A DNA stretch of 64,000 nt from Prochlorococcus sp. AG-409-M05 (GTDB lineage: Bacteria > Cyanobacteriota > Cyanobacteriia > PCC-6307 > Cyanobiaceae), in assembly GCA_003215435.1 (NCBI GenBank), contig QCKJ01000005.1, positions 1 to 64,000 of the forward strand. Direction: 5' to 3'. Positions 12,211 to 34,897 of this stretch are shown in pieces. Positions within the stretch are counted from its first letter, which is position 1, and the number at the start of each line of letters is the position of its first letter. The notes beneath the pieces were generated by a model. The model was not told the DNA's origin, searched no databases, and was given only the letters and a program-made list of their open reading frames with translations. The position numbers and the translations under genes were made by a program.

Positions 12211-12402
12211 ATGGTTGCAAAAAGGAAACAGCTAAATATTAACATCAGTCCTGAATTACTATTGAGGATAAAGAGAGAAGCAATTAAAAGCGGGAAAACG
12301 CTCACAACATATGTAATCGAAAAGCTTAAGAATTATCAATCCAACGATACAGTAGATTCCATAGCCATGCGAAAAGATTTGTCTCATAAGAATAAAGTAT
12401 AG
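12211..12402 (+). CDS. small ribbon-helix-helix (CopG/Arc-like) protein
   Basis: ORF 63 aa; KQLNINISPELLLRIKREAIKSGKTLTTYVIEKLKNY matches the RHH beta-alpha-alpha pattern; -10-like TATAAT at about 12183 and AGGA upstream. Confidence 0.65.
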   Translation: MVAKRKQLNINISPELLLRIKREAIKSGKTLTTYVIEKLKNYQSNDTVDSIAMRKDLSHKNKV

Positions 12403-12717: not shown

Positions 12718-13222
12718 GGTTATATTTTATTGTTCTAAATGCATAAAAACAATAGCGAGATCTATTTATAATAATCATGGGATATATTGTTGGGAAATGC
12801 TATCTCCTTAATTATGAACAGAACAAAGCAGCAATTGTAAAAAGGAGAATATTTATCGAGGAATCGAGGAATGCTTATTGTCGTATATATAGGTTTTTTG
12901 AACAGTATAGTTATAAAATAAGATTATCTAACCAAGATTATTGCTTTATATAACTGGATTGATAGCTGAGTTCAAATCTTAGATTTGTTTAAAATTTCAG
13001 TCCTCATTGATTTATTAAATGCTTTAAATATTGATACTCCCTTAGATCAAAAATCAAAAGGCACGTAATAAAAAATAAGCATTTATTAATAGAGATCCAA
13101 ACAAACGCTCTCAAAAGCATATCAAGCCTTGACCTTCGTATACGAAAAAACTAAAACCCCTCATTTCAAAAACAGGTATTTATATCCATTACATACAAAT
13201 ATGGCATGACTATAAATAGAGA

Positions 13223-13297
13223 AGGAGTCAAAGCACGCTAGGTATCAAAACAAGTGCTCGACTCAAAGGGCGGGATCGAAATACCCCGCCCTTCTTT
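13223..13297 (+). ncRNA. candidate small RNA: two consecutive hairpins, the second an intrinsic terminator
   Basis: TATAAAT at 13211-13217; hairpin 1 GAGTC(AA)AGCAC/GTGCT(C)GACTC; hairpin 2 AAGGGCGGG/CCCGCCCTT followed by CTTT; no ORF spans it. Confidence 0.55.
13266..13297 (+). terminator. strong intrinsic terminator-like hairpin
   Basis: AAGGGCGGG-ATCGAAATAC-CCCGCCCTT (9-bp stem), then a short T-rich stretch (CTTTAT). Confidence 0.65.
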
Positions 13298-34780: not shown

Positions 34781-34836
34781 AAAAAGCCCGAGCTTGTCGG
34801 GCAAGGGTGTGAGGAGTGTGTGGGCCGAAGCCCTCA
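34781..34836 (-). ncRNA. yfr1: Yfr1 cyanobacterial small RNA
   Basis: Reverse strand: TAATAT -10 box, GGGC-TTCG-GCCC hairpin, single-stranded ACTCCTCACAC motif, terminator GCCCGAcaagcTCGGGC + TTTTT; location between guaB and trxA is the established Yfr1 context. Confidence 0.9.
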
Positions 34837-34897
34837 CAAAAGAATATTAACTCCTGTCTAGGGAGTGGGCCAAGAAGTTGTCGGAATGAATAAGGAA

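Follow-up and report, generated by a model that had tools for sequence, protein, structure and literature searches.

The sequence analysed here, referred to as the window, is the 64,000-nucleotide stretch at positions 1 to 64,000 of contig QCKJ01000005.1 from Prochlorococcus sp. AG-409-M05. On its plus strand, near a pcb gene, lies a compact element of two hairpins preceded by promoter-like sequence. The original prediction, made from the letters alone, read this element as an independent small RNA (sRNA) gene, possibly acting on pcb. We recognize the following features:

13167 to 13222, plus strand: predicted promoter region of the sRNA gene (promoter model R2 match at 13167-13220; leave-one-out position weight matrix)
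13172 to 13192, plus strand: operator-like box ACAGGTATTTATATCCATTAC, family consensus ACAGGTGTTTAT(A/C)(C)C..TTG, centred at about -42 (per-position conservation in 90 distinct copies)
13211 to 13217, plus strand: -10 element TATAAAT, family consensus TAGAAAT (sequence; conservation in 90 copies)
13223 to 13297, plus strand: two-hairpin sRNA body (covariance model R1 match at 13223-13296, 90.6 bits, E = 1.3e-16; fold z = -4.84)
13225 to 13264, plus strand: 5' hairpin GAGTC-AA-AGCAC / GTGCT-C-GACTC with a variable loop at 13237-13253 (97.5% of cells paired in 48 sequences)
13266 to 13297, plus strand: 3' terminator-type hairpin AAGGGCGGG/CCCGCCCTT with the conserved loop ATCGAAATAC and the tail CTTT (99.3% of cells paired)

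The -10 box, both hairpins and the CTTT tail are present where they had been predicted. The left arm of the first stem consists of GAGTC (13225-13229) and AGCAC (13232-13236) and the right arm of GTGCT (13254-13258), C13259 and GACTC (13260-13264), enclosing the apical loop GCTAGGTATCAAAACAA. The second stem pairs AAGGGCGGG (13266-13274) with CCCGCCCTT (13285-13293) around the loop ATCGAAATAC (13275-13284), and the tail occupies 13294-13297. If this stem is taken as 9 bp, a single nucleotide (A13265) separates the hairpins, rather than the 3-nt spacer first described. The minimum free energy of the 78-nt stretch is -29.7 kcal/mol, as compared with a mean of -15.7 (sd 2.9) for dinucleotide shuffles (z = -4.84), and none of 200 such shuffles folds as well. 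Based on the spacing from the -10 box, the 5' end of the sRNA is predicted to be A13223. The U-tract of this copy is weak, and generic scanners called no sigma-70 promoter and no terminator at this site. The case for a gene therefore depends on conservation and not on what consensus scans detect.

The nearest plausible plus-strand gene (12211-12402) ends 820 nt before the sRNA. It encodes a small ribbon-helix-helix type protein with weak ParD-, HicB- and NikA-like matches under the Pfam cut-off, and relatives of this protein occur near eight other family loci. The original prediction had placed no plus-strand open reading frame (ORF) within several hundred base pairs. This holds for plausible genes but not for ORFs in general, as a mechanical ORF (58 aa) has its end at 12953, 270 nt upstream; having no relatives among the family loci, it probably does not represent a gene. 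A coding reading within the RNA itself (GTG CTC GAC TCA AAG ...) was rejected by inspection, because a second subgroup of the family is without a start codon there and the base changes are compensatory, not codon-conserving.

A DNA search of 149 relatives returned strong matches beyond the source genome (best E = 1.7e-26), with up to 6 in one genome. We also scanned 84,980 species genomes with an exact pattern and recovered 54 stretches, all titled Prochlorococcus except for one sister single-cell genome titled Synechococcaceae. A covariance search over relatives had been suggested as a check; with model R1, built on 48 non-redundant copies, it detected members at E <= 0.01 in 99 of the 400 genomes of the bacterial family, with up to 7 per genome. 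More closely searched genomes carry 2 to 8 copies when weak matches are counted, the maximum of 8 being found in MIT9313, and the same kind of search detected one copy in the source genome. Two carriers (G010 and G070) are the cultured strains SS120 and MIT9313, in which matches to RF01701 at 556643-556707 and 1667332-1667396 agree with the published yfr2 coordinates (PMC1242208). The sRNA starts predicted in MIT9313 are 334137, 1043524 and 1667850 on the plus strand and 1005214, 1010043 and 1062714 on the minus strand; those predicted in SS120 are 147300, 612190 and 1418604, all on the minus strand. The cultured carriers identified so far are low-light strains. Two genomes that we take to be of high-light type (G016 and G066) yielded no family member in the covariance model search. 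Forms of 109-120 nt occur in a genus (g56) that we presume to be the NATL-type group. Rfam gave no match at 13223-13297 at either gathering or relaxed thresholds. A phage or viral origin was considered and rejected, as no match was found in phage records or viral contigs.

The alignment of the 48 sequences (mean pairwise identity 79%, minimum 61%) supports the two stems. Standard pairs occupy 98.3% of the alignment cells across 20 base pairs, and RNAalifold independently predicted the identical 20 pairs. Changes on both sides occur at 7 of the 20 pairs (three in the 5' hairpin and four in the 3' hairpin), amounting to 104 cells, as compared with 43 on average in shuffles; none of 500 shuffles reached this count and slid controls gave 0-5 cells. 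In the first stem, for example, AGCAC/GTGCT is replaced by AGCTC/GAGCT, and in the second GGGCGGG/CCCGCCC by GGGGGAC/GTCCCCC, GGGAGGG/CCCTCCC or TGGCGGG/CCCGCCA. The pair formed by columns 54 and 67 occurs as GC, AU, GU, UA and CG; several distinct types at a single position point to more than one event, though relatedness inflates the cell counts. Compensatory conservation of the stems in relatives, on which the original prediction had staked its refutation, is therefore clearly present. Judged from these alignments, the window feature is a real member of an sRNA gene family with a defined two-hairpin structure.

Conservation is uneven along the body. The base of the 5' hairpin is GGAGTC/GACTC across the family, and the 5' AGGAGU is almost invariant in 90 copies, including its two unpaired leading bases. 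The apical loop of the 5' hairpin varies in both length and sequence. This 17-nt loop had been proposed as the target-binding site, a role that fits poorly with its variability, among the highest in the family. Within the two main subgroups, hardly any change is seen in the terminator loop ATCGAAATAC, even though its stem varies; such constancy is more than a pure terminator would need, and the loop is possibly a seed or a protein site. A TTCTT(A/C)ATG tail is conserved 3' of the terminator hairpin.

Aligning 90 distinct copies at the start of the body revealed TAGAAAT at -12 to -6, with T in 99% and A in 93% of copies at its first two positions, as well as conservation of a box that spans -54 to -29. 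In many copies this box is near-palindromic (for example, GGTGTTTATCACC), centred at about -42 and adjoining a TTGA-like -35 element; another set carries GAG(C/T)NNNTTTTACCTAATGAC, in roughly the reverse arrangement. The match of promoter model R2 to 13167-13220 has an E value of 2.5e-8 when the window is searched and of 6.4e-7 for the whole genome. A position weight matrix trained without the window copy ranks 13165 as the top site in the window (31.6 bits), the next site reaching 11.3. At the sequence level, the copies thus share a conserved promoter of their own at fixed spacing. Together with the covariation of the stems, this supports the predicted independent sRNA gene of about 75 nt. 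By established promoter rules, the position of the box would correspond to class II activator geometry, and the box itself is a putative protein binding site.

The approximately 95 distinct copies have diverse gene neighbours, including DUF3764 genes, P450-like genes and unknown small ORFs (by Pfam), as well as OsmC-like and TPR-like genes (by eye). The window copy alone is near a pcb gene: when the window's Pcb was compared by tblastn with every family locus, only its own genome matched. The suggested relation to pcb therefore finds no support, and the position beside that gene looks incidental. Serine recombinase-like genes, recognized by eye, recur near these sRNA genes, at L246:771-1397 (minus strand) and at several family loci (cluster c14), and also near the Yfr10-like gene of the source genome.

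Some copies lie in clusters with other sRNA genes. Across ten genomes, 9 of 34 copies (four of the 34 being weak model matches) have a Yfr2 gene or a Yfr1/10 motif no further than 1.5 kb away, as compared with 0.25 expected by random rotation (two genome lengths being rounded). None of 20,000 rotations reached the observed count, which comes from four of the ten genomes, with over half of the signal from a single sRNA-rich genome (G055). An array of about 6 kb in that genome (L198:1754-7092; G055:C1:1375753-1381091) contains at least five family members, in both long (109-120 nt) and short forms, interleaved with two Yfr2 genes, which were confirmed, and several Yfr10-like sRNAs. The window copy is outside any such cluster, 21.5 kb from Yfr1.

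The genomic contexts bear on whether these elements are separate genes. In 65 of 86 contexts the nearest ORF upstream runs in the direction of the element, and the second hairpin has the shape of a terminator, as would be anticipated if upstream genes carried it as a conserved intrinsic terminator or as part of their 3'-UTR. However, a promoter at fixed spacing directly precedes the body in about 90 copies and is recovered leave-one-out, and the upstream genes vary widely, the plausible plus-strand gene here being 820 nt away. We therefore regard this explanation as quite unlikely, although the co-directional ORFs suggest that longer transcripts could also end in some of the copies. In our view, it is very improbable that the element is a cis-acting leader or attenuator of the downstream gene. 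In 46 of 86 contexts the ORF that follows lies on the opposite strand, which argues against such a role, the downstream genes differ, and the pcb start is about 665 nt from the window sRNA; these points outweigh the small ORF that begins about a dozen bases past the terminator in a subset of copies (cluster c7) and the ATG that is often conserved after the U-tract. The multiple, scattered copies in variable contexts, several with serine recombinase genes nearby, might also be taken for a dispersed repeat of the MITE or REP type that lacks any regulatory function. We give this little credence, because both stems covary while the promoter spacing is kept, and some copies, such as those next to gene cluster c1 (OsmC-like, judged by eye), are retained at one site across many strains.

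Alternatively, the RNA may be a sponge or partner that pairs with Yfr1 or Yfr10 through the conserved AGGAGU, the complement of their ACUCCU core. Its near-invariance, even in the unpaired first two bases, would be consistent with this, as would the clustering of copies with Yfr2 and Yfr10-like genes and the presence of a similar GUGAGGAGU stretch in Yfr2. However, AGGAGU is mostly locked in the stem, and co-folding with the Yfr1, Yfr10-like and Yfr2 RNAs of the source genome produced no gain over shuffled partners, whereas the Yfr2-Yfr10 control did gain. Such pairing thus appears unlikely. We favour a stand-alone sRNA gene family.

Comparison with described cyanobacterial sRNAs suggests that this family is distinct from the best known of them. 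The window RNA resembles Yfr1 (RF01116) in being a short cyanobacterial sRNA, but the Yfr1 core, single-stranded between two hairpins, is absent from it: ACUCCUCACAC does not occur at 13223-13297, and Rfam places Yfr1 only at 34783-34837. The Yfr1 gene at that position of the window (minus strand, RF01116, 57.9 bits) carries the core ACTCCTCACAC. Like the family, Yfr2-5 (Cyano-1, RF01701) is multicopy, combines a hairpin with a terminator and, in several genomes, sits in sRNA clusters that also hold family members; unlike the family, it has GGAAACA repeats in the 5' loop and promoters without the family operator. No RF01701 match was found at 13223-13297 at the gathering or relaxed threshold, and the Yfr2 copies of the source genome lie elsewhere. 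The original prediction was thus correct that both the Yfr1 core and GGAAACA are absent from the element. The Yfr10-like sRNAs (Yfr10, and Yfr104 of MIT9313) come closest in architecture, having a 5' hairpin and a terminator in 70-85 nt, multiple copies and variable positions; the window RNA has the same two hairpins, length range and terminator. In the source genome, the Yfr10-like gene also has an operator and -10 box of the family kind. The body sequences are unrelated, however, and Yfr10-like RNAs carry ACUCCUCACAC in the apical loop, whereas the first-stem loop of the window RNA (GCTAGGTATCAAAACAA) is without this Yfr1 motif. By these defining sequence features, the family is not Yfr1, Yfr2 (Cyano-1) or Yfr10.

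Other named sRNAs were compared by description. Yfr13 is a 101-nt sRNA of high-light strains and NATL1A/2A; the search of the presumed high-light genomes G016 and G066 found no family member. Yfr106, Yfr107 and Yfr108 of NATL2A are low-light-clade sRNAs validated by Northern blot (PMC7368042), and family forms of 109-120 nt occur in the presumably NATL-type genus (g56). The Synechococcus paralogues of Yfr103 are 290-328 nt long, as opposed to about 75 nt for the family unit from promoter to terminator. Furthermore, Yfr103 occurs in Synechococcus, whereas the family operator model matches none of 11 relatives with larger genomes that we take to be Synechococcus-type. Yfr103, described in MIT9313 and marine Synechococcus, nevertheless resembles the family in being multicopy in Synechococcus, in its presence in low-light Prochlorococcus, and in a conserved imperfect palindrome that is reported between -58 and -29 relative to its start site, about where the family operator lies (PMC5069720). 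The family may coincide with a named RNA of NATL2A (Yfr106-108) or MIT9313 (Yfr101-105), as far as comparison by description goes.

The promoter is not confined to the family. Model R2 holds no RNA-body sequence, and its matches in relatives include units (at L192, L193 and the minus strand of L202) in which a 5' hairpin and terminator of different sequence follow. A search of 21 genomes for TNCCTRMTGAC-N17-19-TAGA gave 20 matches, 12 of which precede a two-hairpin RNA (folds inspected): family members, three RNAs of the Yfr10-like type (loop CTCCTCACAC) and a third kind of body, GTCAGG(G/A)C. The remaining 8 look random, and a reversed control pattern also gave 8 matches in the same genomes; a single site is therefore credible only with a downstream RNA. 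The Yfr10-like sRNA of the source genome (G000:C1:268254) has the same kind of operator and -10 box, with an E value of 0.19 for R2 alone. The third body (GTCAGG(G/A)C...GTCCTG followed by a AAAGGCAC terminator) lies behind the same operator at G037:C1:51983 (L148) and G051:C1:833574 (L209); in G037 it is directly upstream of a family copy. The R2 operator model found no match in the 11 presumed Synechococcus-type relatives. The Yfr2 promoter motif was rejected as the source of the operator, since Yfr2 promoters recur with TGTGACAGTT instead and gave no R2 match. Sequence comparison thus indicates that the family shares its promoter with other predicted sRNAs.

Given this sharing, we tentatively suggest, with some doubt, an sRNA regulon of low-light Prochlorococcus in which one putative class II activator would act through a shared operator on interchangeable two-hairpin sRNAs (the family, Yfr10-like sRNAs and at least one further body). 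By duplicating, moving and swapping RNA bodies under a single promoter module, a genome with few protein regulators might thus vary its regulation. Expression of the family should track that of Yfr10 if the two truly have the operator in common. In MED4, Yfr10 is up in darkness and down in high light, and its regulator is stated to be unknown (PMC6778093). An operator common to Yfr10-like sRNAs would therefore be a concrete handle on which regulator controls Yfr10.

Overall, the element at 13223-13297 most probably belongs to a family of stand-alone sRNAs that act in trans and occur in multiple copies in Prochlorococcus, mainly in low-light lineages, and it forms a complete unit under a putative activator. 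A typical copy would be a full transcription unit, with a sigma-70 type promoter, TAGAAAT, an operator-like box near -42 and two hairpins. Under some light or nutrient condition, the putative activator may co-induce the family and other two-hairpin sRNAs, the Yfr10-like ones among them, and the sRNA would then base-pair with target mRNAs in trans. Copies in SS120 and MIT9313 make this proposal testable in cultured strains and against existing start-site maps. Protein regulators are very scarce in Prochlorococcus, a shortage for which sRNAs are believed to compensate. As a multicopy group that has its own operator and no Rfam entry, the family would represent a sizeable set of candidate regulators for the low-light clades.
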